Positions 187-28,842 of a stretch of 37,837 nt of DNA are shown in pieces (positions within the stretch are counted from its first letter, which is position 1; each line of letters opens with the position of its first letter). Origin of the DNA: a bacterium (GTDB lineage Bacteria; Armatimonadota; Chthonomonadetes; Chthonomonadales; JAMCWF01); contig JAKBZR010000025.1 in NCBI GenBank assembly GCA_021842405.1, positions 1 to 37,837 on the forward strand, written 5' to 3'. The translations under genes and the position numbers were made by a program. A model generated the notes under the pieces. It was not told the DNA's origin. It ran no database searches and saw nothing but the letters and a program-made list of their open reading frames with translations.

Positions 187-609
187 ATGATGCGGAAAAC
201 CATGCTGAAGTATCCGAAACGACAAGCGTTCACCTTGATTGAGTTGCTTGTTGTGGTCTTGATCTTGGCCATCTTGATGGCCGTCGCCCTGCCGCTCTAT
301 CTCGGTGCGGTGAAGGACTCGGCGGTGAAGGCCTGCCGAGCGAATATGCAGACCATTGCCAACGCCGAGCAGGCTTATAAAGTTAAGAACGCAACTCATA
401 CTTTCACGACCGACCTGAGCTCATCCGGCGCGCTCGTTGCGGATGGAAACCTGACCGCCATCCCGACCTGCCCCAACGCCGGAACCTACACCGTCGTCCT
501 AAACACTGACGGCACCATTACCGTTCACTGCTCCGTCGCTACCGATGACGATGATAACGGGAACTATCCGGCTGGCCATGGCTACACGCCCGGGGTGGAC
601 AGCCAGTAG
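187..609 (+). CDS. Type IV prepilin, major-pilin type, copy 1 of 3
   Basis: A 140-residue type IV pilin / type II pseudopilin-like precursor. A basic 14-residue leader ends in Ala, so the prepilin peptidase would cut A14|F15, with Glu at +5 of the mature protein (FTLIE). About 22 hydrophobic residues follow and form the N-terminal helix that packs in the fibre core. The C-terminal part has two Cys after the helix (TCPN, VHCS) and an acidic DDDDNG loop, which may bind calcium as in GspG. AGGAG at 171-175 precedes the ATG. It is the first of three tandem paralogues and is followed by a hairpin (627-654) that may limit readthrough. It is probably a structural pilin subunit; a pseudopilin role is the alternative. 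Confidence 0.9.
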   Translation: MMRKTMLKYPKRQAFTLIELLVVVLILAILMAVALPLYLGAVKDSAVKACRANMQTIANAEQAYKVKNATHTFTTDLSSSGALVADGNLTAIPTCPNAGTYTVVLNTDGTITVHCSVATDDDDNGNYPAGHGYTPGVDSQ

Positions 610-763: not shown

Positions 764-870
764 AAAATGGGGTGCAGCCCAACGCATCCCATCAATAACA
801 GGTGATGAAACGAAAAATCATCGAGCCTGTCTGCTCCGAGCAGAAGCAACACACGAAAGGAGAAGCGACC

Positions 871-1293
871 TTGCGAAATCGCAGTAACTGTCGCAAGCGC
901 GGTCTTCGCGCATTCACTCTAATTGAGTTACTAGTCGTCGTCCTGATCTTGGCCATCTTGATGGCCGTCGCCCTGCCGCTCTATCTCGGAGCGGTAAAGG
1001 ACTCGGCGGTTAAGGCTTGCCGCGCCAATATGCAAACCATCGCCAATGCCGAAGTGGCCTATAAGGTTAAGAACGTGGCACATACTTTCACGACCGACCT
1101 GAGCTCGTCCGGCGCGCTGGTGACGGATGGAAACCTGACCGCCATCCCGACCTGCCCCAACGGCGGACAGTACTCGGTTGTCATTAACGGTGACGGCACC
1201 ATTACCGTCCATTGTTCGATTTTGAATGATGATGACGATGATGGGTTTTATTCCGGCGCGCATGGCTACACGCCTGGTGTGGACAGCCAGTAG
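871..1293 (+). CDS. Type IV prepilin, major-pilin type, copy 2 of 3
   Basis: Paralogue of the pilin just upstream. I choose the TTG at 871 because AAGGAG (857-862) lies 8 bases before it. It also gives a 140-residue protein with a 14-residue leader, exactly the length of copy 1, with cleavage A14|F15. An in-frame GTG at 802 would add 23 residues of atypical leader and has a weak ribosome site. From the cleavage site through the helix and into the TTDLSSSGALV segment, it is almost identical to copy 1 in protein and largely in DNA. The variable part is the C-terminal acidic loop (NDDDDDGFYS). It is probably a second subunit or a silent/alternative pilin. Confidence 0.88.
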   Translation: MRNRSNCRKRGLRAFTLIELLVVVLILAILMAVALPLYLGAVKDSAVKACRANMQTIANAEVAYKVKNVAHTFTTDLSSSGALVTDGNLTAIPTCPNGGQYSVVINGDGTITVHCSILNDDDDDGFYSGAHGYTPGVDSQ

Positions 1294-1388: not shown

Positions 1389-1856
1389 ATGTACCGGGGA
1401 GGAAATACACAATGCTATGAGTTTGCGGGCAAACCGCAGCCCAACCTCCCGTTTGAGAGGGCGGCATTCACGCTGATCGAAATGCTGGTTGTGGTTTTAA
1501 TATTGGCGATACTGATGTCTGTCGCGCTGCCGCTCTATATAGATGCGGCGAAGAATTCGGCGATTAAGGCCTGTCGCGCCAACATGCAGACGATTGCTGA
1601 TGCGGAGGTGGCTTACAAAGTTAAAAATCCGAGCCACGTTTTTACTACCGATTTAAGCTCATCGGGTGCGCTGGTGGCGGATGGAAATTTAACGATTATG
1701 CCGGTCTGTCCGAACGGCGGAACCTATTCAATCGCTCTGAATCCACCCGACGGCAGCGGGTTGATTACGGTGCACTGCTCGATTGCAGGCGATGATGACG
1801 ACGGCGGCCTTTACTCTGTCAACCATGGCTTTACGCCCGGTTTTGATAGAGAGTAG
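1389..1856 (+). CDS. Type IV prepilin, major-pilin type, copy 3 of 3
   Basis: A 155-residue prepilin with a longer 26-residue leader, cut at A26|F27 before FTLIE. The start ATG follows GGATGGAG with normal spacing. The protein keeps the same plan: hydrophobic helix, KACRANMQTIADAE, TTDLSSSGALVADGNL, the same conserved Cys and an acidic DDDDGG loop. Its DNA uses different synonymous codons from copies 1 and 2 (for example ATATTGGCGATA against ATCTTGGCCATC), so it is an older duplicate or has escaped the gene conversion that appears to link the other two. Confidence 0.88.
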   Translation: MYRGGNTQCYEFAGKPQPNLPFERAAFTLIEMLVVVLILAILMSVALPLYIDAAKNSAIKACRANMQTIADAEVAYKVKNPSHVFTTDLSSSGALVADGNLTIMPVCPNGGTYSIALNPPDGSGLITVHCSIAGDDDDGGLYSVNHGFTPGFDRE

Positions 1857-1983: not shown

Positions 1984-2025
1984 AGCCAGATCGAGTTGCC
2001 AACGGATTGGCAAACTGATCTGGCT
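1984..2025 (+). promoter_or_regulatory. Strong hairpin in the leader of the PilX-like gene
   Basis: Arms 1984-2002 and 2007-2025 (19 bp each, 16 pairs matching) enclose a CGGA tetraloop. No U-tract follows, so a simple terminator is unlikely. It lies upstream of the start I favour for the next gene and could be an mRNA processing, stability or regulatory element. It also covers an alternative TTG start at 1996, which makes that start unlikely. Confidence 0.5.
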
Positions 2026-2103
2026 CTTGTGCGTCTGGACGGAGCGTTGTTGATACTTGATCAAACAATATTCAATGAATTTCAAAGGCGGACACGACAC
2101 CGC

Positions 2104-3591
2104 TTGAATCGGGGCGCCGCCTTGATTTTTGCACTCGTCGTCGTCTTGATTTCCTCGCTCTTCATCTTAGCGATGGGGACTTTCGCCCTTCAACATCTCT
2201 ACTTAGAACAGACTGAATCCGACTACGGTACCGCCCTCTACTCGGCAGAAGCGGCCCTCAACTATGAACTCAACAAAATCAGCCGTGACCCCTACCAGAT
2301 CAGCGGTCCCACCTGCGCGGCCGATAACACATCCGCCGGCGCCTATAACGGCACTCTGTCGAACGCACCATGCTCCACCGTCGCCTTTCCGAATCCCAGC
2401 AATGATCCGGTGAAGGTTTATGTAACCCACAGCGACGGCGTAGATCCCTGGTTACCCGGCTCAAACATGATTGTATGGGCAAGTGGCACTCATAATGGCG
2501 TGAGCCGCCGCATTGAAGCCTTTGCCGGCCCCGAGGGTTTGGGGGATACTTATGCGATTTACGGGGCCAGCAGCTTGACGTTGAACTCCACCGCCACGAT
2601 CAACGGTAATATTGGAACGGCCGGTACATTGACGAACAACGGCCTGACATCGCTCAACGGAACCTGCTTTCTGGAAACTTCATCGGCTGCCTACAATGGG
2701 GTTACACCAAGTTGGGATACGCTCCGACTACCCAACGCCACACCTTGGCCCACCGTGAGTAGCGTCATCTCGACCGTTTTTCCCGAATCAAGCGGCTACC
2801 CCGATCCAATCACCTATATCGCCGGACACAATGACGATTTTCGCACCATTTCGCCGGGCATCACCTCAATAATGTCTCGTGACGCATCCGGGAATCTGGC
2901 GCCCTTCGATACTCAGCATTTTAGCGCATCCGATCCGGCTTTGAATTCGACGGTGTTCAGCGATAATCACCACTGGATTGTGTTGATCGGCGATGGCTCG
3001 ACCGCTCCCAATGGGATGACCCGCGGCAGCACCCTATACTTCACACATATTTCGCTCGGCCCGCAAGACACGCTGGAAATTCTAAACAATCTTCCCTCCG
3101 GATATCCCGATTCAACCGGTGCTTTCCACGGGCCGGTTCGGATCATTGTCGGTCCCTCCGGGGGAACTTCAACCTCTCCGGTGATTGATCTTACGAAAGG
3201 CAACCTGATCACTCATGATCCTCACGCCGCCGCACTGACGTTGTATAACGCCACCGCCGGCACCGCAAAGCTGGGCGATGCGGTGGTCACCACCATGAAT
3301 GATTTCAACCCGAGCGGGGGAGTTCAAAATGTGCTGCCGATTATCCTCTATGCCTACAACGGCCCGACCGATCCATCCACGTTGGGAATACACGTTGTCG
3401 GCAATCTAAACCTGTGGGGCAGCCTGGTCGCGGACCGCATTATGGTAAATGGTGGTAATATGACGGTGACTGGTAACAATCCAAATCAAAGCCAGATATC
3501 GGATTCCCGGCAGTACATCGTCCGATATATCATTAAGAGCTTCTGGCTTGAGCGCAACCCGCTGGCCAATTATGGTTTGGGGTCGAGGTAA
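2104..3591 (+). CDS. PilX-like minor pilin / pilus assembly protein
   Basis: About 495 residues. The N-terminus (NRGAALIFALVVVLISSLFILAMG) is the short PilX_N-type hydrophobic helix without the FTLIE signature. It is followed by YSAEAALNYELNKI, which is typical of PilX family members. The long C-terminal part is Ser/Thr/Asn/Gly-rich with repeated short strands (LTLNSTATINGNIGTAG, GNLNLWGSLVADRIMVNGG), suggesting a beta-helix-like or adhesive domain displayed at the pilus tip. The start is uncertain: TTG 2104 follows AAAGGCGG and gives the usual short leader, whereas TTG 1996 lies inside a hairpin and would add 36 atypical residues. The following prepilin starts 6 bases after the stop, so they are co-transcribed. 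Confidence 0.75.
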   Translation: MNRGAALIFALVVVLISSLFILAMGTFALQHLYLEQTESDYGTALYSAEAALNYELNKISRDPYQISGPTCAADNTSAGAYNGTLSNAPCSTVAFPNPSNDPVKVYVTHSDGVDPWLPGSNMIVWASGTHNGVSRRIEAFAGPEGLGDTYAIYGASSLTLNSTATINGNIGTAGTLTNNGLTSLNGTCFLETSSAAYNGVTPSWDTLRLPNATPWPTVSSVISTVFPESSGYPDPITYIAGHNDDFRTISPGITSIMSRDASGNLAPFDTQHFSASDPALNSTVFSDNHHWIVLIGDGSTAPNGMTRGSTLYFTHISLGPQDTLEILNNLPSGYPDSTGAFHGPVRIIVGPSGGTSTSPVIDLTKGNLITHDPHAAALTLYNATAGTAKLGDAVVTTMNDFNPSGGVQNVLPIILYAYNGPTDPSTLGIHVVGNLNLWGSLVADRIMVNGGNMTVTGNNPNQSQISDSRQYIVRYIIKSFWLERNPLANYGLGSR

Positions 3592-3597
3592 AATCGA

Positions 3598-4053
3598 ATG
3601 AAACACCGTTCAAACCGATCCCAATTCAATCGGATTACCGGCGGCCAAAAGGGGTTTACGCTCATCGAGATGTTGGTGGCGGCGCTCATTCTATCGGTGG
3701 CTTTGATGAGCATGATCGGAGTCTGGACTTTTAGCCTATCATCAACCGGTGCGACCGATGATTACCAAATCGCCGCATCGCTATCCCACATGGCGATGGA
3801 ACAGGCAAAGCGGGACGGCTACTATTTTGCAGCCGATAAGTCGAGCTACTTTACTGGAACAACCGCTGAAATTGATGGCAGCCCAACCCAGTTGCCTGAC
3901 TCCCGTTTTCGGGTGGATACCACGATCTATACCGGCGCCAACCCGGTTCGGCCTGACCTGGAGTTGAAAGCGGTGGTTGTCACCGTCACCCGGCTACGGG
4001 ATAACAAGCAGTTGGCTACCTGCCAAACCTATCTATCGGCGGGGGGAATATAG
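3598..4053 (+). CDS. Prepilin, PilV/GspI-like minor pilin
   Basis: A 151-residue prepilin. The 19-residue basic leader ends KG, then FTLIEMLVAALILSVALMSMIG, a canonical G|F cleavage site with Glu at +5. The helix sequence with Ala-Leu-Ile-Leu and the later QAKRDGYYFAADKSSYF segment are like PilV/GspI minor pilins, which prime fibre assembly. It lies 6 bases after the PilX-like gene and runs directly into the next prepilin, consistent with a minor-pilin priming cluster X-V-W. Assignment to PilV rather than GspI is by context. Confidence 0.8.
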   Translation: MKHRSNRSQFNRITGGQKGFTLIEMLVAALILSVALMSMIGVWTFSLSSTGATDDYQIAASLSHMAMEQAKRDGYYFAADKSSYFTGTTAEIDGSPTQLPDSRFRVDTTIYTGANPVRPDLELKAVVVTVTRLRDNKQLATCQTYLSAGGI

Positions 4054-4054
4054 T

Positions 4055-4621
4055 ATGCGAGCAAAGGGCGGATTTACACTGGTAGAGCTGCTGGTCACCG
4101 GAATAATTGCTCTGCTGATCGGGAGCGGACTATTTGTTCTGGCGGCACAGACCTGGTTGTCTGAACAGACCATTTTAAACCAAAATACGGCCCAAAGCGA
4201 GGCGAGGGAAGCGGTCAATATGGTCGTTAATGATGTGCTTCAACTGGAACCCGGCCCCAGCACTCAAGCTACCGGCACCCTGATCCAGTTTATGCGGCCG
4301 GCATCAGGGGGCATCGTGCGCATTCAGTGGAGCCCTTATACCAAAGTGCTGACCCGATACTCCACCGTGAATATCTCAACCATTCATAATATCACTTCCT
4401 TTCAGCTTACTTATGAGTTTCGCGAGCCGTCATCGGATGGAAACCTGGATCACTGGTTCCGTTTCTCAGCGCCCAGTATGGTACCACTCCCGCTGCCGCT
4501 GCGGTCAAAAATTGTGGCGGTCTACGTCAGTGCGACTGCAACGGTCAATGGCGCCACTAGTACTATGTCGGGCGGCGTCTGGATTCGGAATCAACTAACC
4601 AATATCCCGGCGCCCGTGTAG
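4055..4621 (+). CDS. Prepilin, PilW/GspJ-like minor pilin
   Basis: A 188-residue prepilin. ATG 4055 follows GGGGGGA (4041-4047) and gives a very short leader, MRAKGG, then FTLVELLVTGIIALLIGSGLFVLA. Cleavage would be G|F with Glu at +5. The later sequence (SEAREAVNMVVNDVLQLEPGP, then beta-rich segments) matches the PilW/GspJ pattern of a larger minor pilin. It starts 1 base after the stop of the preceding prepilin, so translation is likely coupled. An upstream in-frame start would bury the leader and is rejected. Confidence 0.8.
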   Translation: MRAKGGFTLVELLVTGIIALLIGSGLFVLAAQTWLSEQTILNQNTAQSEAREAVNMVVNDVLQLEPGPSTQATGTLIQFMRPASGGIVRIQWSPYTKVLTRYSTVNISTIHNITSFQLTYEFREPSSDGNLDHWFRFSAPSMVPLPLPLRSKIVAVYVSATATVNGATSTMSGGVWIRNQLTNIPAPV

Positions 4622-4635
4622 CAAGTGAGAAAGAA

Positions 4636-6294
4636 ATGGCCCTAACCAAGCGATCGGTTTTAGGTATTGACATTAACAGCAACGAGCTGCGCGTCGTCGA
4701 GCTGCGGGGAAGCGGCGCTTCGGCGCAGGTCACTCGGCTGGGAGCGGTTCCACCGCCCACCGGTTCAATTGACGGCGGCCGCATTGTATATCCGGAAGCG
4801 GTCGCTGAAACGCTGCGGGGTCTGTTGAAAAGGCTCAATACCCGTTGCAACGCCGCCGTGTTGGGGATTGGTTCTCAAAGTGTCATCAGCCGGGTACTCG
4901 AGATTCCACCGGTTCCACCGGAAGAGATTCACAGCGTTATTGAAGGAGAACTACGCCACTACCAAATTTTGCGTTCCGGAGCGGGCGCATTTGACTACGT
5001 GCCCATTGAGCCGATCAACCCGAATACGAATGCCAACACCATTTTATTAATGGCAACCGAAGAAGCCACCATCTCCGGTTACCGGGAGGTGGCTGAGGCC
5101 GCTAATCTCCAGATCATTGCGATGGAGCCGATATTGCCGGCAATTTATCGTGGAGTAAGCCACCATATTCTGGCTGAACCCGCCGTCATGGTTTTGTTGA
5201 TCACCTACTCCAGAACCGAGATCACAATTGTGGACCACGGCAAAATCCGGCTCTACCGGCGAGTGGATATCGGAAGCGACGACCTTATTTCGGGAAGGCT
5301 CCCACACCGCGTCCGCACGTTGCGCCCCGATGAGAAAGTATCCGATCGCATCCTGCTCAACAATCCGGGAGAGGAGGAGGTTGAAACGGAGGAGATCATA
5401 CCCGGCACTCTGCAGCAGGATGTGGCCGAAACGCTGGCAATTGAAGCCCAGCGATCATTGGACTACTACCGTCGAGAATATCCCGCTTCCGCAACCGTGG
5501 CAAGATTGCTGATTGCGACCAATGACCCAGATATTGAACAATATGGCGAACATATCGCTGAAACACTGAGAATAGACGCCCGCATGGCCGACGCTCCGGT
5601 CGCGATGGCGATCTCTCGCCAAGTCGCTTCACAAATGGAAGCGCCGAACGGTCTGCGTTACCTGGGCGCGGTCGGTCTGGCGATGCACTCACAGCAGATT
5701 GCTCAGGAGATAGTTCCACGCTTTGACCTTTCAGTCCGGGAAAGGCACCAAGCCGATACTGGCGTCGCCAGACAGCGATTTACCGCCGCGCTGGTCGCCG
5801 GTCTGGTGATCATTTTGGCTGGGCTGCTTATTGCTCTTTCCATCGGCCAGAAAGCAAACCAGTTGAGTCGTGAAGTGGTATCCGCTCACGAAAATCTGAA
5901 TCAACTGACCAACCAAACCCAAACACAACTGGCCAACGAAGAGCGTTCTCAATCTCTCTATGAACAGCTTCGACTCTACGGTTACGCCTGGCCTCGGATT
6001 CTCGATGGAGTGTCGGCAGCCGTGCCCTCCAGTGCCGATTTGACCAGCGTCGGCCTCAATGCGGATGGCGCACTCGATATTTCAGGCGATGCCGATAACG
6101 CTCAAGCCATCATTGATATGATGAAGGCGATGCAGCAGTGTCCCTATTTTGAACCAATCTCACTCGATTCGTTGATCACGCCGGAGAACAATACCAATCA
6201 GATCAATCCTAATGCAGTCTTCACCTTCCGTTTGAAAACCTCGCTGGTTGGCTCACCGGCTTCTCTGCCGCCCCCACCCGCGAATGGAGGCTGA
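4636..6294 (+). CDS. PilM-PilN fusion protein of the type IV pilus alignment complex
   Basis: The 552-residue product joins two proteins that are usually separate. Residues 8-352 are PilM-like, an actin/FtsA-fold cytoplasmic protein: GIDINSNELRVVEL at 10-23 is the phosphate-1 loop and ITIVDHGKIRLYRRVDIGSDDL at 196-217 the second. Residues 353-380 replace the PilN N-terminal peptide that normally binds PilM. One membrane helix (about 383-403) follows, then a Gln/Asn/Glu-rich coiled coil (405-445) and a PilN-type ferredoxin-like periplasmic domain (450-535). A proline tail ends it. In known systems PilM and PilN link cytoplasmic pilus motors to PilO, PilP and the secretin. The next gene is PilO, as expected. 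No internal stop or frameshift separates the halves. Confidence 0.88.
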   Translation: MALTKRSVLGIDINSNELRVVELRGSGASAQVTRLGAVPPPTGSIDGGRIVYPEAVAETLRGLLKRLNTRCNAAVLGIGSQSVISRVLEIPPVPPEEIHSVIEGELRHYQILRSGAGAFDYVPIEPINPNTNANTILLMATEEATISGYREVAEAANLQIIAMEPILPAIYRGVSHHILAEPAVMVLLITYSRTEITIVDHGKIRLYRRVDIGSDDLISGRLPHRVRTLRPDEKVSDRILLNNPGEEEVETEEIIPGTLQQDVAETLAIEAQRSLDYYRREYPASATVARLLIATNDPDIEQYGEHIAETLRIDARMADAPVAMAISRQVASQMEAPNGLRYLGAVGLAMHSQQIAQEIVPRFDLSVRERHQADTGVARQRFTAALVAGLVIILAGLLIALSIGQKANQLSREVVSAHENLNQLTNQTQTQLANEERSQSLYEQLRLYGYAWPRILDGVSAAVPSSADLTSVGLNADGALDISGDADNAQAIIDMMKAMQQCPYFEPISLDSLITPENNTNQINPNAVFTFRLKTSLVGSPASLPPPPANGG

Positions 6295-6417: not shown

Positions 6418-6963
6418 ATGCCAAGAGCCAGTATCTATACGGTAGGTTCGATTTTAATACCGATCATTTGCTTGATATTTTCGGTGGGGATAGTGACCTA
6501 TGAATATCGGAGGGCTGAATCGGCCCACGAAGAGCTGCGTAAGGTGGAGGACGACACCGCTTTCTACCAATCGCTGGTCACCGAGATGAAGAATAAGCCG
6601 CTTCCGAGTAAGGTCCCGGTCATTATGGTGACCGAAAATGAACCCATTGATTTCGTCAATACCTTGCAGCTTCTCTGTCGTGCAAGCCATACCCAGATCG
6701 TCTCACTGTACAATGCGGCGCCCTTGGCTCCCGCGCCGGTGGTCGGCGCGACCACCCAGGCAAAACTTCCCGACAACGTACAAGCGATTGCCAGCGCCAT
6801 CACGTTGCAGGGCACCTACAAGGCACTCAGAAGCTTTTTTTATATGGTGTTACGGCACCCACGACTCTTTACCATTACCAACGTTAAGGAGCAGTCAACC
6901 GGCCATTATCCCTTGCTCAATGCGACCTTTACCCTAACCCGATATATCCAACCGGCAAAATAG
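6418..6963 (+). CDS. pilO: PilO-like inner-membrane alignment protein
   Basis: A 181-residue bitopic membrane protein. It has a short cytoplasmic N-terminus, one membrane helix (about 10-29, ILIPIICLIFSVGIVTYEY), a charged coiled coil (30-60) and a C-terminal ferredoxin-like fold in the periplasm, with a predicted strand-helix-strand ending LTRYIQPAK. In other bacteria PilO forms a heterodimer with PilN. Position directly after the PilM-PilN fusion and before the secretin supports the call, since the sequence family is weakly conserved. A 123-bp gap with an ATAATATATTAT palindrome (6308-6319) separates it from the fusion gene. GAGGGG immediately precedes the ATG, and AAGGAA lies about 10 bases upstream. 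Confidence 0.75.
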   Translation: MPRASIYTVGSILIPIICLIFSVGIVTYEYRRAESAHEELRKVEDDTAFYQSLVTEMKNKPLPSKVPVIMVTENEPIDFVNTLQLLCRASHTQIVSLYNAAPLAPAPVVGATTQAKLPDNVQAIASAITLQGTYKALRSFFYMVLRHPRLFTITNVKEQSTGHYPLLNATFTLTRYIQPAK

Positions 6964-7033
6964 GTCTTTGAACATAAATCGTTTCGCGAACTTTTTGCCG
7001 GATGCGGAACTCGGTAAAACAGAGGTGACCAGA

Positions 7034-8857
7034 ATGAACCGAAAAATGTGCGGACTATTCATGATTTTGTGGTTGTTCACCACAATTCAGCACCCATCAT
7101 GTGCGGCCACCGGCAGATTGTCAACACCGTTCCTGCTCGACTTCGAAAATACCGATGTAGTCAAAATTCTTCGGGCTTTGATGGTGCAGAGCAATGCCCA
7201 AATCATCGTATCGCCCGATGTCAAAGGCACGATACCCGCCATCCGCCTCTGGGTTACATCCGTCGGGGATGCGCTGGACAAGCTGACCGCAGCAGTGGGC
7301 GTCACCTATCGAGAGGTAAATGGCACCTATCTCGTAGCGCCTGCCGCCAATATGAGGGCGCTCGTGGCCCGATATGGCGAAAAACAGATCTATTCTTTGA
7401 ACCGGCTTACAGATGAGCAGGCAACGCAACTGGTTGAGGGCGCGTTCCCGGATATGACGGTCAGACCGGCCGGCACCGATATCTTCTTGATTGGTACTCA
7501 GGATGACATCAACCAAGCGATTGCATTGCTCGCCAAACAGGATGCTCCGGTTCAGCTTCCACCACAAAGCCATGAGATTGTAGGCCTCAAATTCGCCAAG
7601 CCCTCGGAAGTGATCCGTGTGCTGAAAGATGTGGTGCCCCAATTAAAGGTGGAGGCGGTTGGCAATACGCTTGCAATGAGCGGAGCTGATGCGAGCCTTC
7701 GCACCGCACGTCAGGTCATCGCAGCGGTGGACGTAGAGCCGAAACCATCCGGTCCATTGAAGGTATACCGCGAGTACAAGATTAAGTTCTCAAGCGCCGA
7801 AGCCCTCAGAAATGCGTTGGGAAAGGCGGTCCCCAATGTGTCGGTCGTTATCGGTCCGGAGAGTTACTCCCCACCTCAACCCGCATTCCGGCCGCTTTCA
7901 GGCCAATCCATCGGAATCTTGAATAGTGGGCAGGGCACCGCCGGTGGGTTCGGCGGTGGTGGTGGTGGCGGTATATACGGCGGCGGTACCGGCGGCGGCG
8001 GTATGAGCGGCCTTACGACCGGTTATGGTACGACGACGACTCAACAACAGGTCAACAGCCGCTCAAAAGATCTCTTTTTAGCCGGTCCGAAGCAGGATGT
8101 CGACGCCGCTTTGAAGCTGCTCGCCGAAATGGATACCGCTCCATCCCAGGTTATGGTGGACGTAAAAGTGATAGACACCTCGCCGGAGGTGGTGCGGAGT
8201 ATCGGGTTGCAGTGGTCTTGGAACAATTTGACCTTTGTGGAGCAACATTCAAGCGTTCAGCCGCTGCCCGGTGGAGGCTCCGATCTGCTGCGGCCGAGCG
8301 TGGGCATCGGTTCCTTTGCCCGCATCCCATTTTCGGCGGCTGCCACGTTGAACGCAATCGAAACCAACACGCGCAGCAAGCTTCTGGCTGACCCTCGCAT
8401 TCAGGTGTTGGATAATGATGACGCCAGCATATTCATCGGCCAGACGGTGCGGGTCCCGGTTGCGGTTGCGGTGAGTGGGATCGGCACCGTACAAAATCAA
8501 TTGGTAGAAATCCCGGTCGGCATCATCCTGCTGGTTCGCCCGCGAATAAACGGCCATGATGACATCACGATGCGCGTCCATCCTGTAGTGAGCACAATCA
8601 GCGGATTCCTAAACGGATATCCGCAAACCTCCAGCCGTGAAGCCGAAACAACGGTGCGTGTTCACGATGGAGACACCATCGTGATCGGAGGGCTGATTCA
8701 AGATGAAAAGACGGTCACCAACCAGAAAATTCCGATCCTGGGAGATTTACCGATCATCGGCTATCTATTCCGCAACCACAGCGTGGATCATGCTCGGTCT
8801 GAGGTGCTGGTATTTATAACGCCCCACATCATTCCGCCGTCACCCAATGCGTCGTAA
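7034..8857 (+). CDS. pilQ: Type IV pilus secretin (PilQ/GspD family)
   Basis: A 607-residue outer-membrane secretin forming the channel for the pilus. ATG 7034 follows AGAGGTG and begins a signal peptide (MNRKMCGLFMILWLFTTIQHPSCAA). A TTG at 6968 would put 22 residues before it. A short N0/STN domain follows (FLLDFENTDVVKILRALMVQSNAQIIVSPDVKG), then repeated N-domains (about 120-260), a Gly-rich stretch (about 300-335), and the conserved secretin core. The core shows VMVDVKVIDTS, NTRSKLLADPRIQVLDN, the DGDTIVIGGLI motif, ILGDLPIIGYLFRN and the terminal VLVFITPHII. There is no AMIN (peptidoglycan-binding) domain, unlike proteobacterial PilQ. Confidence 0.93.
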   Translation: MNRKMCGLFMILWLFTTIQHPSCAATGRLSTPFLLDFENTDVVKILRALMVQSNAQIIVSPDVKGTIPAIRLWVTSVGDALDKLTAAVGVTYREVNGTYLVAPAANMRALVARYGEKQIYSLNRLTDEQATQLVEGAFPDMTVRPAGTDIFLIGTQDDINQAIALLAKQDAPVQLPPQSHEIVGLKFAKPSEVIRVLKDVVPQLKVEAVGNTLAMSGADASLRTARQVIAAVDVEPKPSGPLKVYREYKIKFSSAEALRNALGKAVPNVSVVIGPESYSPPQPAFRPLSGQSIGILNSGQGTAGGFGGGGGGGIYGGGTGGGGMSGLTTGYGTTTTQQQVNSRSKDLFLAGPKQDVDAALKLLAEMDTAPSQVMVDVKVIDTSPEVVRSIGLQWSWNNLTFVEQHSSVQPLPGGGSDLLRPSVGIGSFARIPFSAAATLNAIETNTRSKLLADPRIQVLDNDDASIFIGQTVRVPVAVAVSGIGTVQNQLVEIPVGIILLVRPRINGHDDITMRVHPVVSTISGFLNGYPQTSSREAETTVRVHDGDTIVIGGLIQDEKTVTNQKIPILGDLPIIGYLFRNHSVDHARSEVLVFITPHIIPPSPNAS

Positions 8858-8965: not shown

Positions 8966-9811
8966 ATGAACGTGAAGCCGGAAGATCGTCCAAAAGTTGT
9001 TGTGCTGTCAATCGCGATTCTGATAACGGTGGTCTTTATCGTCTACACCATTATTCGATCCATAAGCCCACCCAAAGCAGCCGTCGCCGTGGCTCGCCCT
9101 GGTCCAGCCAGCGCAACAACGACTGCCCCTCCGCGACAGCTCAATCCCAGCGATATGAATGAGAGCACTGCATCAATTCCCAGCGCAACGCGAGACCCTT
9201 TTACACCGATCCGTCCTTCGATCCTACCTGGCCAAGCGTATGCTTCAGCTCGCCCTTCGTCAAGAGTGAGCTCAGCCAAACCTTTCGTGATGAACCGGCC
9301 AACTCCACCGACAACCGTGCAGCCGATACTGCCGCCGGTAACCATTCAGCCCGGACTCGGCTTTAACCCCGTCCCATCGCTGCTGTTGAAAGGGATCATT
9401 ACGGGCACCCCACCGGTGGCCGTTATTCAAGTGGGCGACCAGACCTTTTATCGCCGCCCCGGCGAAAGCATCATCGGTGGCTGGACGATCAAGCGGATCA
9501 ATGATTCGGGCGTATTCCTCCAGTCCGGCCAGCGTTCTTTGCTGCTTACCATCGGTGGCTCCGTATCGTCGTCAGAATTAAATGTGACGGGGGCATCCCC
9601 CTCACTGCTGCCAACCGCCACTCGCCCGAATCCACATTCAACCGTTCATCGGCCTCGAATCCGGCGGATTCGACCGATGTTACATCCCCATTACCGGCCG
9701 CGATACCACCCGGTTCGCATAGTCCACCCCCGCCGGACTTTCACTCATTATCGGGTACGGCGCACCTACCATCGCGCCGGCATCACCCGATTCCATAGCT
9801 GGTCGCTTTAG
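8966..9811 (+). CDS. PilP/GspC-like pilus protein with a His/Arg/Tyr-rich tail
   Basis: A 281-residue protein with an N-terminal membrane anchor (about 9-30) and a Pro/Ala/Thr-rich periplasmic linker (30-135). A compact beta domain follows (about 136-210: LLLKGIITGTPPVAVIQVGDQTFYRRPGESIIGGWTIKRIND), matching the PilP/GspC homology region that docks on the secretin. The last 60 residues are an unusual basic, aromatic low-complexity tail (HRPRIRRIRP, HPHYRPRYHP, HYRVRRTYHR). AAGGAG lies just before the ATG. It follows the secretin gene, so it probably completes the PilM-N-O-P-Q alignment complex. Its stop codon overlaps the stop of the convergent ATPase gene. Confidence 0.72.
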   Translation: MNVKPEDRPKVVVLSIAILITVVFIVYTIIRSISPPKAAVAVARPGPASATTTAPPRQLNPSDMNESTASIPSATRDPFTPIRPSILPGQAYASARPSSRVSSAKPFVMNRPTPPTTVQPILPPVTIQPGLGFNPVPSLLLKGIITGTPPVAVIQVGDQTFYRRPGESIIGGWTIKRINDSGVFLQSGQRSLLLTIGGSVSSSELNVTGASPSLLPTATRPNPHSTVHRPRIRRIRPMLHPHYRPRYHPVRIVHPRRTFTHYRVRRTYHRAGITRFHSWSL

Positions 9812-19022: not shown

Positions 19023-20207
19023 CTATAGTTCATTGCGCTCGATGAGCCCAATCTCCACCCCATCCGGCCTAATTCGGTGAGCGCCAATCTGCATGGAACA
19101 CACCGCGCCGATCCCTTTTACCGGGGTAAATATCCCCGCCCTTCTGGCTCTAAAATCCAGCGATTCAATCAGTCCCAAACCGAGAAAGCTGCCTTCCCGA
19201 TCTAACAGCCCAACCAGCGCATGTTGCAAACGACCAACCGGCGTTATCCGGAATATTTCAAGCCCGCATTGCTGCATCAACTCATCTTTTAATGGTGGGT
19301 GAATGATCATCGCACCGTTCCGATCTATTAATTTGCCTTCCTTCTCCGCATTGGCCATCTCTCGCGTCCGTAAGAGCAGACCAAGCCGTTGCCCTATGAT
19401 TTCAGCATATTCTACTGTAATTCGCAGCGCTCGCGAAATCTGGGTAAGAGCGGCAGGAGGTGCCGGTCGGCCGCGCCCCAGCCAGCTTCCCAATATATCT
19501 ACCCGATTCAACTCCACCGTCCGCATCTCCGCTTCCCTGAAATAATGAGCAAACCGCATCGCCCGCCTTGAGGCACGCAATCCATTTGATTTCGTCTTGA
19601 TACACGCTGGAACCGGCAAGCGGTGGGTTACCGGCAATGAGGCATACTGGCGGCCGACCATAATCGGTTCGCATTCGCCCGAACGCTGCAATATAATAAG
19701 CTGATCCGGTTGCAATAGATCAATTTTCGCACGCTTCAACCTAAGGCCAACCGTACCCAGCACCAACCCGCTGGTATCAACCACGATAAGTTGGGGTTTT
19801 TGTTGCCGCGCATGGCAAGCCATTTGGTGTACCGCTACGAGATGTTCGATGGTTCGGAATGCCGGTGAGGTCGCACCGACGAACGCTGCCGCCGCCGGCC
19901 TTATCGAAGCGATCCCCTCAAACGGCTCCGACAGTAACCCTAACGATACGGTGGACGGCGGCCCCATCTCGGATTGGCCTACATCGGCATCAATTAAAAT
20001 GGTGCGGGCACCCGTCTGTAATGCTTGGAGCAATAACAATGTTGTCAGAGTGGTTTTACCGGTATCCGGCGCCCCCATCAACATCACCAAACCGCCGCTC
20101 TCCACCAGATCCATTACCGTCTGGCGCCACTCCGCGTATTCTGCTAAATCCAATCGCCGAAATCCTCCCACCAACTCGTTGTGCGCATCAACTGGAACCG
20201 TATCCAA
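19023..20207 (-). CDS. Clp1/Grc3-like P-loop polynucleotide kinase-type protein
   Basis: A 394-residue P-loop protein. Walker A is GAPDTGKT (45-52). The Clp1/Grc3 family signature ILIDADVGQSEMGPPSTVSLG follows at about 70-90, and VVDTSGLVLG (about 147-156) matches the family's third motif. Clp1 and Nol9/Grc3 proteins phosphorylate RNA or DNA 5'-hydroxyl ends in eukaryotes and archaea; bacterial members are less studied. The C-terminal part (about 285-394) forms a separate beta-rich domain. No ATG is available and translation probably starts at TTG 20207. It lies 33 bases downstream of RelA/SpoT on the same strand. Confidence 0.75.
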   Translation of the reverse strand: MDTVPVDAHNELVGGFRRLDLAEYAEWRQTVMDLVESGGLVMLMGAPDTGKTTLTTLLLLQALQTGARTILIDADVGQSEMGPPSTVSLGLLSEPFEGIASIRPAAAAFVGATSPAFRTIEHLVAVHQMACHARQQKPQLIVVDTSGLVLGTVGLRLKRAKIDLLQPDQLIILQRSGECEPIMVGRQYASLPVTHRLPVPACIKTKSNGLRASRRAMRFAHYFREAEMRTVELNRVDILGSWLGRGRPAPPAALTQISRALRITVEYAEIIGQRLGLLLRTREMANAEKEGKLIDRNGAMIIHPPLKDELMQQCGLEIFRITPVGRLQHALVGLLDREGSFLGLGLIESLDFRARRAGIFTPVKGIGAVCSMQIGAHRIRPDGVEIGLIERNEL

Positions 20208-26221: not shown

Positions 26222-27934
26222 TTGTCAAATTCATCAAAATCCCGCTATACGGCAGCCGTATTGGAGGAGATGGCGGAGCACGTCTCGTCAATGGAGCGCG
26301 ATATCATCCAAATCAGCGATCACCAAACCGATGATCTCATTGCTTCGCTGTTCCGATCCGCTCATTCATTGAAGGGGGCCGCTCAGGCGTTGGGATTTCA
26401 ATCCTTGGGTGGAGTCGCCCACGCGATGGAGGACCTATTCGATGGGCTGAGAAATGGGCGCATTAAGGTAACGCAGTACCTTGTCGAAGCGCTGCTGAGT
26501 GGGGTTGACCTTATTCGAGGGCTTGGCCAAGAGATCGCCGCGAGCGGCAACTGCACAACTGATGTGGGCCGGTTCGTCGGTTACCTTCGCGCTCTGGCTG
26601 AATCTCCGGATAAACCATCAAAGTCGGCTGAGGCCAACCATCGCGATCAACCCGGTGCGGAAAACGATCCTCCATCGTTATTGACCGAGGATTATGAAAG
26701 GCAGAGATGGTCAAACCAGAGCGCCTCCGCTGAACCGGCGACCGTTCGCATTGATGTGAGGCGGTTGGATCGAGTGATGAATCTGGTGGGAGAGCTGCTC
26801 GTTGAACGCGCCGACTTCAACCTGATTGCCGCTCAATTGAAACGGGAAATGGTCAGCTCGGAGGCAGTCGAGCGACTTGAATCCTTAACCGACCATCTTG
26901 CACGCACCTCCGAAGAGATGCAATATGAGGTTTTACAAGCACGTCTGTTACCGCTTGATCGGGTATTCAACCGGTTCCCGCGAATCACTTTCGAACTGGC
27001 GCAGAAACTCGGCAAAAAGGTTGAGCTTGAGGTTCGCGGTGAGGAGACGGAAATAGACCGCTCGGTCGCTGAGTTGATTGTAGATCCCCTCACGCAAATG
27101 ATTCGCAATAGTGTGGATCACGGTATCGAAACGCCGGAGGAGCGCGCGCGTTCGGGCAAACGTGAAAACGGCCGCATCACGCTCAAAGCCTGGCATGCCG
27201 GAAACCGGGTCATCATTGAAATCAGCGATGACGGCCGCGGGTTGGATACCGAAAAATTGAAGAGGTCGGCGATAAAAAAAGGCTTTATCACCGAGGACGA
27301 ACTGGCGCAGCTCAGCGACGATAAGGCTAATCAACTGATATTCCTGCCCGGAATCACGACCTCCACAATCCCAACCAGCGTTTCAGGACGAGGGGTTGGG
27401 CTTGATGTCGCTCGATACAACCTTCAGAAGATGGGCGCTGAGATCGAGGTGAAATCCATAGAGGGTCAGGGCGTTGTTTTTCGATTAAAGCTACCGCTTA
27501 CACTGGCAATTGTGCGTGGCGCCCTGGTTTTGGTGGATGATATCCAGTGCATATTACCGCTGGCCTTCATCGAAGCGGCTACCCGGGTGCCGACCACCTC
27601 GCTGGAAAACCTTCAAGGTCAACCATTGATGAGATATCAAGGGAGTAATGTACCGGTTTTCTGGTTGCGTAATTTGTTGGGATTAAAAAACGGTCGGTCG
27701 CAAAGTGATGAGGATGATGTCCAGATCGTGATCGTAAATCAGGACAGGCGCCGATTTGCGCTGGCGGTTGATAGCCTGATCGGGGAGCAGGAGATCGTGC
27801 TGAAAAAATTAAGCGGTTTGGCCGACGAGGTTCCCTTTATTTCAGGGGTGACGCTGCTGGAATGCGGCAGGGTTGGGCTGGTACTGGATTTGTTTCAAAT
27901 TGCCGATAATATTTATCAATACAAGAGAGGATGA
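26222..27934 (+). CDS. CheA-type histidine kinase lacking a P2 domain
   Basis: A 570-residue kinase. The P1 Hpt domain has the phospho-His in FRSAHSLKGAAQALGF (His48). A Pro/Ser/Asp-rich linker (about 125-170) stands where the P2 response-regulator docking domain would be. P3 dimerisation (about 175-250), P4 ATPase (N-box MIRNSVDHGIETPEER about 293-308, G1 DDGRG 336-340, G2 SGRGVGLDV about 390) and P5 CheW-like (about 428-570) follow. The start appears to be TTG 26222 with GGAAAAAAGA upstream. Its stop overlaps the HDOD start by 4 bases. It could control pili or another output. Confidence 0.9.
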   Translation: MSNSSKSRYTAAVLEEMAEHVSSMERDIIQISDHQTDDLIASLFRSAHSLKGAAQALGFQSLGGVAHAMEDLFDGLRNGRIKVTQYLVEALLSGVDLIRGLGQEIAASGNCTTDVGRFVGYLRALAESPDKPSKSAEANHRDQPGAENDPPSLLTEDYERQRWSNQSASAEPATVRIDVRRLDRVMNLVGELLVERADFNLIAAQLKREMVSSEAVERLESLTDHLARTSEEMQYEVLQARLLPLDRVFNRFPRITFELAQKLGKKVELEVRGEETEIDRSVAELIVDPLTQMIRNSVDHGIETPEERARSGKRENGRITLKAWHAGNRVIIEISDDGRGLDTEKLKRSAIKKGFITEDELAQLSDDKANQLIFLPGITTSTIPTSVSGRGVGLDVARYNLQKMGAEIEVKSIEGQGVVFRLKLPLTLAIVRGALVLVDDIQCILPLAFIEAATRVPTTSLENLQGQPLMRYQGSNVPVFWLRNLLGLKNGRSQSDEDDVQIVIVNQDRRRFALAVDSLIGEQEIVLKKLSGLADEVPFISGVTLLECGRVGLVLDLFQIADNIYQYKRG

Positions 27935-28842
27935 CAGGGATGGCGCAGAGCGCACAATTTACTCAGATTGATCGCGATTTATTGCAAGAGACCCTCCAAA
28001 AAAAGTTATCTGACTTGCCACCGCTCCCGGCCGTGGTCAATCGAATTATCTTGACCGTGAATGATCCGAGCACCACCGCTGAGGATTTAAACCGACTCAT
28101 TTCAATGGATCAGGCCTTGGCCGCAAAAATTCTCCGGATTGTAAATTCATCTTACTACGGTTTTCCGCGCCGGGTCAGCACGGTAACTCACGCAGTCGTC
28201 ATATTAGGCTTCAATACGGTGCGAAACCTGGTGATGGGCATCTCCGCCTTCGGAGCGCTGGCACAGGGGAGTGAGTACGGAGTAAAGCGCTATGAGTTCT
28301 GGCGACACGCAGTGGCTACCGCTGTTGCGGCCAGTGTGACGGCTAAACGGAAGCTGCCCAAAGCACGAAGCGTCATTGAGGAGGTCTTCATCGCCGGCCT
28401 TCTGCACGACATGGGACTGCTCTATCTGGACACTCAGTTGCCGGTGCAATATGCCATCTTGTTGGGTGAAGCGCAACGGGCCTCTATTTCCATCGAGGAG
28501 GCTGAACAGGCGATATTAGGGATGGATCATATGCAGATCGGCCAGTCAATCGCTGAGCACTGGAATTTTCCGGCTTCACTGGCCACCGCTATCGGACAGC
28601 ATAGTCGCCCCGACCCGCAGAGCGAATATTTCAGGTCGGCAGCCGTCATTCACTGCGCGGATTGGGTTGCATGGCAAATCGGTGCTGGAATAAGCTGCCT
28701 GGTGCACAACAGCCGGATGTCAAAACCGGTCTATGATTGGCTGGGATTTTCGGAGCAGGATTTCGATTGGCTTATTCGGGATATTCAAGCGAAGTTCAGC
28801 GGAGCCGAAGAGATGGTGGGCAGCTTGGCTGCCGCCGCCTAG
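27931..28842 (+). CDS. HDOD-domain signalling protein
   Basis: A 303-residue protein with an HDOD domain over most of its length: LSDLPPLPAVVNRIILTVNDPSTTAEDLNRLISMDQALAAKILRIVNSSYYGFPRRVSTVTHAVVILGFNTVRNLVMG. It keeps an HD pair in AGLLHDMGLLYLD and AIGQHSRPD, so some phosphohydrolase residues survive. HDOD proteins often act in chemotaxis-like and stress signalling. ATGA overlap with CheA indicates translational coupling; ATG 27940 with ACAGGG is an alternative start. Confidence 0.88.
   Translation: MTGMAQSAQFTQIDRDLLQETLQKKLSDLPPLPAVVNRIILTVNDPSTTAEDLNRLISMDQALAAKILRIVNSSYYGFPRRVSTVTHAVVILGFNTVRNLVMGISAFGALAQGSEYGVKRYEFWRHAVATAVAASVTAKRKLPKARSVIEEVFIAGLLHDMGLLYLDTQLPVQYAILLGEAQRASISIEEAEQAILGMDHMQIGQSIAEHWNFPASLATAIGQHSRPDPQSEYFRSAAVIHCADWVAWQIGAGISCLVHNSRMSKPVYDWLGFSEQDFDWLIRDIQAKFSGAEEMVGSLAAAA

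Follow-up and report, generated by a model that had tools for sequence, protein, structure and literature searches.

The window, i.e., the whole stretch of DNA analysed here (37,837 nucleotides), corresponds to the entire contig C37 of genome G000 and starts 186 bases ahead of the first pilin gene of an operon read on the forward strand. Three tandem GspG-like paralogues stand at the start of this operon: prepilin 1 (187..609), which has an N_methyl match and a TIGR01710 score of 41 bits (under cut-off), prepilin 2 (802..1293), and prepilin 3 (1389..1856). With prepilin 1 as the phmmer query, the latter two scored 235 and 202 bits, compared to 302 bits for the query itself. They are followed by a PilX/GspK-like protein of uncertain start (1996..3591), assigned from a PilX_N match under cut-off (13.4 bits) and its operon place in relatives, by a GspI/PilV-like minor prepilin (3598..4053) with an N_methyl match and PilV/ComGE matches under cut-off, and by a GspJ-like minor prepilin (3977..4621), assigned from an N_methyl match under cut-off (17.6 bits) and its position, whose true start is probably near 4053. 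The gene under study (4636..6294) comes next and encodes a GspL-like, PilM-PilN fused protein. Downstream of it are encoded a PilO/GspM-like protein (6418..6963; PilO, 13.8 bits, under cut-off), in a place conserved after the fusion, a secretin of the GspD/PilQ type (6968..8857; Pfam Secretin, 157 bits), and a GspC/PilP-like protein (8966..9811) assigned from its place, as it follows the secretin in relatives, with a Y4YQ_C match of 20 bits (under cut-off). The K, J, M, and C labels used for this operon denote place plus sub-threshold matches.

In relatives (e.g., L044, L046, and L064), the fusion lies within an E-F-pilins-L-M-D-C operon; no E or F was found on the window contig. The proteins of the same genome that are nearest to the relatives' E and F are the E of C161, at 65% to the G019 copy, and the F of C85, at 59%. 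Each is encoded at the end of its contig, and no overlap was found between these ends and the start of the window. The second-best E-F pair of the genome is on C103, and we infer that it is the partner of an operon on C167. Elsewhere in the window, a gene on the reverse strand (19023-20207) encodes a CLP1_P P-loop domain (108.7 bits), named from a eukaryotic RNA-processing factor, and a CheA-like kinase gene (26222-28842, forward strand) is directly followed by an HDOD gene.

The fused protein and its homologues

Translation of 4636-6294 gave 552 residues with a sole, terminal stop, upholding the claim of an earlier note that PilM and PilN are fused here in one uninterrupted frame. That note had also read an actin-like domain, a transmembrane (TM) helix, a coiled coil, and a PilN domain in the protein, and Pfam, hydropathy, and AlphaFold2 bear this out. 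When each half was searched by HMM, as the note had proposed, both passed their Pfam cut-offs. PilM_2 matched residues 10-352 (4663..5691) at 76.8 bits (cut-off 27), in a domain with the actin fold of PilM 2ych, and PilN matched residues 455-535 at 26.5 bits (cut-off 22.8), in a PilN/GspL-type ferredoxin-like domain that spans residues 452-537 (5989..6246) and was also recognized by Foldseek. Between the two domains lie a P-R-F-D-L junction motif (residues 361-365; 5716..5730), which by alignment takes the place of the PilN N-terminal peptide, the protein's single TM helix by hydropathy (about residues 385-403; 5788..5844), modelled as a helix with low confidence, and a long, coiled-coil-like helix (residues 404-447; 5845..5976) seen in the structure models.

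The AlphaFold2 model of the full fused protein, built on a 6-row alignment (A4), had a mean pLDDT of 73.7 and comprised the actin-like domain, a linker and TM region of low confidence, the helix at 404-447, and an alpha-beta-beta-alpha-beta-beta domain; the periplasmic part modelled alone reached 81.2. Compared with solved PilM structures, the N-terminal model gave Z 31.6 for 2ych (3.8 A over 315), 30.0 for 3jc8, and 28.3 for 5eou, and it gave Z 14.5 for the EpsL cytoplasmic domain. Foldseek with the periplasmic domain listed, as its five leading matches, the corresponding domains of PulL, EpsL, and XcpY, at E 1.4e-3 to 6.8e-3 and thus none below 1e-3. By VIA, GspL chains (Z 8.5-10.1) were tied with PilO chains (Z 8.0-9.7, with 9.7 and 9.5 among them), and PilN 4bhq gave Z 6.3.

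The earlier note had itself raised a frameshift error in the assembly or a start codon near residue 350 as grounds for doubting the fusion. An in-frame ATG does lie at codon 350, 11 codons ahead of the junction motif, and it is the sole start codon within codons 340-390. Its Shine-Dalgarno match is weak (3/6), as is that at codon 1 (4/6), and since neither ribosome site is strong, the argument against two proteins being made from one frame rests on the homologues. These comprise 22 window-type and 28 T2SS-type full-length fusions from many assemblies, likewise fused and without internal stops, which argues against a sequencing or assembly artefact as well. Either explanation of the single frame is therefore highly improbable.

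These homologues were collected by searching the window fusion (P0001) in 61 genomes, 31 of the order and 30 others of the phylum, with a full-length fusion defined as having a TM after residue 300 and >100 residues beyond it. The 22 window-type rows include the window itself and two loci, L067 and L068, from a further genome-contig scan; two more window-type fusions are incomplete at contig edges. By our tally, 16 of the order's 31 genomes have a window-type fusion, or 18 if the contig-edge ones are counted, and none was found among the loci fetched from the 30 genomes sampled elsewhere in the phylum; one (L068) is in a Fimbriimonas MAG of the same phylum. The genome-contig scan gave no match with P0001 alone and five loci with A3 as the query; L064, L065, and L066 are the same records as G019, G014, and G021, and do not count as independent evidence. 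A tblastn search of plasmids with P0001 gave no match. Elsewhere in the phylum, at L035 (G042), pilM and pilN lie in one frame around 2101-3480 and downstream with a single TAG between them, and this open frame of 763 with one TAG represents a natural pre-fusion layout.

Fused and separate copies, nucleotide loops, and the junction motif

PilN-domain matches in genome G000 fell in three long frames, on C37 (the window), C80, and C167, all of which are fused. C80 carries a T2SS operon ordered E F G H I J K L M C D (letters by place), where the fused protein occupies the GspL place and where E and D, though not F, pass NCBIfam equivalog cut-offs. C156 has a cluster of a separate pilM (477 aa), a pilN (starting MLRVNLLPP), and pilO-like and pilP-like genes, and C94 has PilB-, PilT-, and PilC-like genes, the PilT adjoining the C94 ATPase; this PilB-type protein also misses the PilB cut-off (631.8 vs. 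675.65). On C167, downstream of the second window-type fusion operon, is encoded a protein (L012:2748-3983) with a PEP-CTERM-like C-terminal end, which we take to be a sorting signal.

Loop residues of the PilM-like domains were counted at the columns of the genome's own separate PilM, with the caveat that loops may be misplaced by the aligner; their names and putative nucleotide-binding role are those of the PilM family. The second G of the phosphate-1 loop is present in 14/14 separate PilMs, 25/28 T2SS-type fusions, and 1/22 window-type fusions, and the K ten columns in is present in 14/14, 4/28, and 0/22, respectively. For the phosphate-2 G the counts are 14/14, 3/28, and 8/22, while the first G of the adenosine loop occurs in 13/14, 27/28, and 1/22, and its second G in 13/14, 4/28, and 2/22. 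Judged by these residues, the nucleotide loops appear decayed, strongly in the window-type rows and unevenly in the T2SS-type rows.

The N-terminus of PilN binds a groove of PilM, as in the PilM-PilN structures 2ych and 5eou. Separate PilNs carry [NDS]-L-x-P as their N-terminal motif (MLRVNLLP, MIKINLLP), and the residues ahead of the TM in T2SS-type fusions are INLVP, VNLIP, and similar. [NDS]-L-x-P is present in 26/28 of these fusions, against a mean of 1.0 and a maximum of 4 after shuffling. The exact motif is in only 1/22 window-type fusions; at the same place, all 22 have P-x-[FLIVM]-[DN], a pattern picked after the alignment was viewed (shuffle mean 1.1, maximum 6). This window-type motif lies 20-29 residues ahead of the TM, compared to a distance of 15 between NLLP and the TM of the genome's own PilN, and we equate it with the PilN motif because of its place and the alignment, not its letters. 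Both fused lineages have thus kept a motif of the PilN N-terminus type at their junction. Since the junction motif is conserved, contact between the junction peptide and the PilM-like domain has probably been retained. The 1:1 tether of PilM to PilN that the earlier note envisaged is judged right, and a putative loss of any PilM-PilN dissociation step through fusion is plausible.

The PilM-domain tree (64 rows, after the genome's own FtsA, a second ORF of L039, and the proteins L023, L027, and L096, truncated at contig edges, were dropped) resolved three clean groups, i.e., 28 T2SS-type, 22 window-type, and 14 separate. Rooted with two FtsA, no grouping was rejected (p-AU 0.513 for window-type with T2SS-type, and 0.508 for T2SS-type with separate), and the free tree joins window-type with separate (support 86, not starred). 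An ATPase tree of 45 rows, with four near-duplicate or incomplete rows left out, does not order the groups either, and its E. coli branches are long. It is conceivable, although we would lean against it, that PilM and PilN fused at least twice in filament machines of Armatimonadota, in the C80-type T2SS and in the window-type, with decay of the nucleotide site and retention of a PilN-type groove peptide each time. If true, tethering would be a repeatable way of converting a type IV pilus clamp, which can switch, into a secretion scaffold that stays fixed, and the unfused pair in the same cell would serve as a control.

Identity of the fused protein and comparison with known systems

GspL binds the GspE ATPase and anchors it at the membrane. 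The window protein has the GspL architecture, i.e., an actin-like domain, a single TM, and a ferredoxin-like periplasmic domain in one chain, and in relatives its gene is accompanied by E, F, pseudopilins, M, C, and D, as is that of GspL (the window contig being without E and F). Since the relatives' gene lies in this E-F-pilins-L-M-D-C operon, a GspL-like working is favored, and the fused protein is most probably an L-type scaffold subunit. It would serve a divergent type IV filament machine, similar to a T2SS, in an Armatimonadota bacterium whose order, going by named relatives, is probably Chthonomonadales. One polypeptide would thereby do the work of PilM and PilN, as GspL does. The cytoplasmic PilM-like domain would hold the assembly ATPase, the junction peptide (361-365) would pack in the PilM groove like the PilN N-terminus in type IV pili, and the one TM and the coiled coil would lead to the ferredoxin-like domain, which is expected to have as its partner the PilO/GspM-like product of the next gene. 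Linking this scaffold to the secretin would fall to the GspC-like protein, and the machine would secrete proteins rather than display a pilus.

We file the protein as GspL-like only, because Pfam T2SSL has no match and the machine misses the NCBIfam cut-offs for both T2SS and type IV pili. Neither T2SSL nor GspL_C matched P0001 up to E 0.1; on these models, GspL of E. coli K-12 reaches 283 and 143.6 bits, respectively. The window-type E, F, and D all miss their equivalog cut-offs: C161 E scored 600.6 with the PilB model (cut-off 675.65) and 570.9 with the GspE model (cut-off 630.25), F scored 380.2 (cut-off 424), and the window secretin scored 216 bits with TIGR02517 GspD (215.8 < 351.35) and 160 bits with TIGR02515 PilQ (under cut-off). 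On these NCBIfam models F leans to GspF and the secretin to GspD. Judged as a type IVa pilus machine, the system has an E below the PilB cut-off, and in the window-type operons examined no PilT-type match was found other than a weak one of 141 bits, to an ORF lying upstream in L068. As a type IVa PilM, the protein passes PilM_2 and scored 97.1 with TIGR01175 (cut-off 133), and it is a fused chain with degenerate loops.

Alternatively, the protein could be a true type IV pilus alignment subunit, with pilM and pilN fused as in Campylobacterota, in a machine that makes a surface pilus. Besides that precedent (PMC11870540), PilM is the nearest match of the N-terminal domain, the PilB model outscores the GspE model on C161 E, and the genome's own type IV pilus proteins on C94 are better matches than the T2SS ones on C80 for the E and F of the G019 copy. 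However, the genome already has separate pilM-pilN-pilO and PilB-PilT-PilC clusters, the secretin and F lean to their Gsp counterparts, Foldseek puts the periplasmic domain nearest to GspL, and the operon has several GspG-like pilins and no PilT. A pilus subunit is therefore unlikely, and the L-type scaffold remains the preferred reading.

The premise of the earlier note that such a fusion is unusual was mistaken: in type II secretion, GspL is by nature PilM fused to PilN (PMC10191384 and PMC6325625), and pilM and pilN are fused in most Campylobacterota type IV pilus clusters (PMC11870540). Together with PMC4471445, PMC3815138, PMC10128026, and PMC6233222, this literature already covers both GspL as PilM plus PilN and fused pilM-pilN in Campylobacterota. 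Two further papers reassign type II secretion to Armatimonadetes among others (PMC6668835) and name PilM and PilN as separate proteins in C. perfringens (PMC6958937). No description of a PilM-PilN fusion in Armatimonadota was found in the open literature searched. The window-type family carries the known GspL design into a phylum that has been little studied and a machine unnamed by the curated models used, and it overturns no view of these machines. With three fused copies and one unfused pair in one genome, and a PilN-type motif surviving at the junction, it lends itself to asking at what point PilM and PilN became permanently linked, and whether nucleotide binding by PilM matters only as long as the parts are separate.

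The likeness to GspL extends from the one-chain architecture to the place of the gene, which follows the pseudopilin genes and precedes one of M/O type. In contrast to GspL, the window fusion is without a T2SSL or GspL_C match, its actin domain is full-size and PilM-like (EpsL Z 14.5 vs. PilM Z 31.6), it is longer (552 aa vs. 387 in E. coli K-12), and its operon has D and C after L and M rather than at the opening. With type IVa PilM and PilN (the genome's own C156) it has in common the Pfam domains, the PilM fold, and a motif at the PilN N-terminus position before the TM, but it is fused, its nucleotide loops are decayed, and its operon is different. Campylobacterota type IV pili likewise have pilM and pilN as one gene, which sits in a pilMNOPQ type IV pilus cluster and is likened here by description only (PMC11870540). 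The Amuc_1101 family (NF045709; a PilM-like, 608-position model) matches window residues 266-446 at 28 bits, far under its 650-bit cut-off, and PilM wording was not found for Amuc_1101 in the passages of PMC5332112 examined. The C80-type GspL of the same genome and order is likewise a PilM-PilN-type fusion with one TM, and it has its own NLxP-type junction motif; however, it forms a separate clade in the PilM-domain tree and belongs to a T2SS in which, unlike in the window-type machine, E and D exceed the NCBIfam cut-offs. The fusion in the window is real and intact, and its arrangement is already known as GspL.
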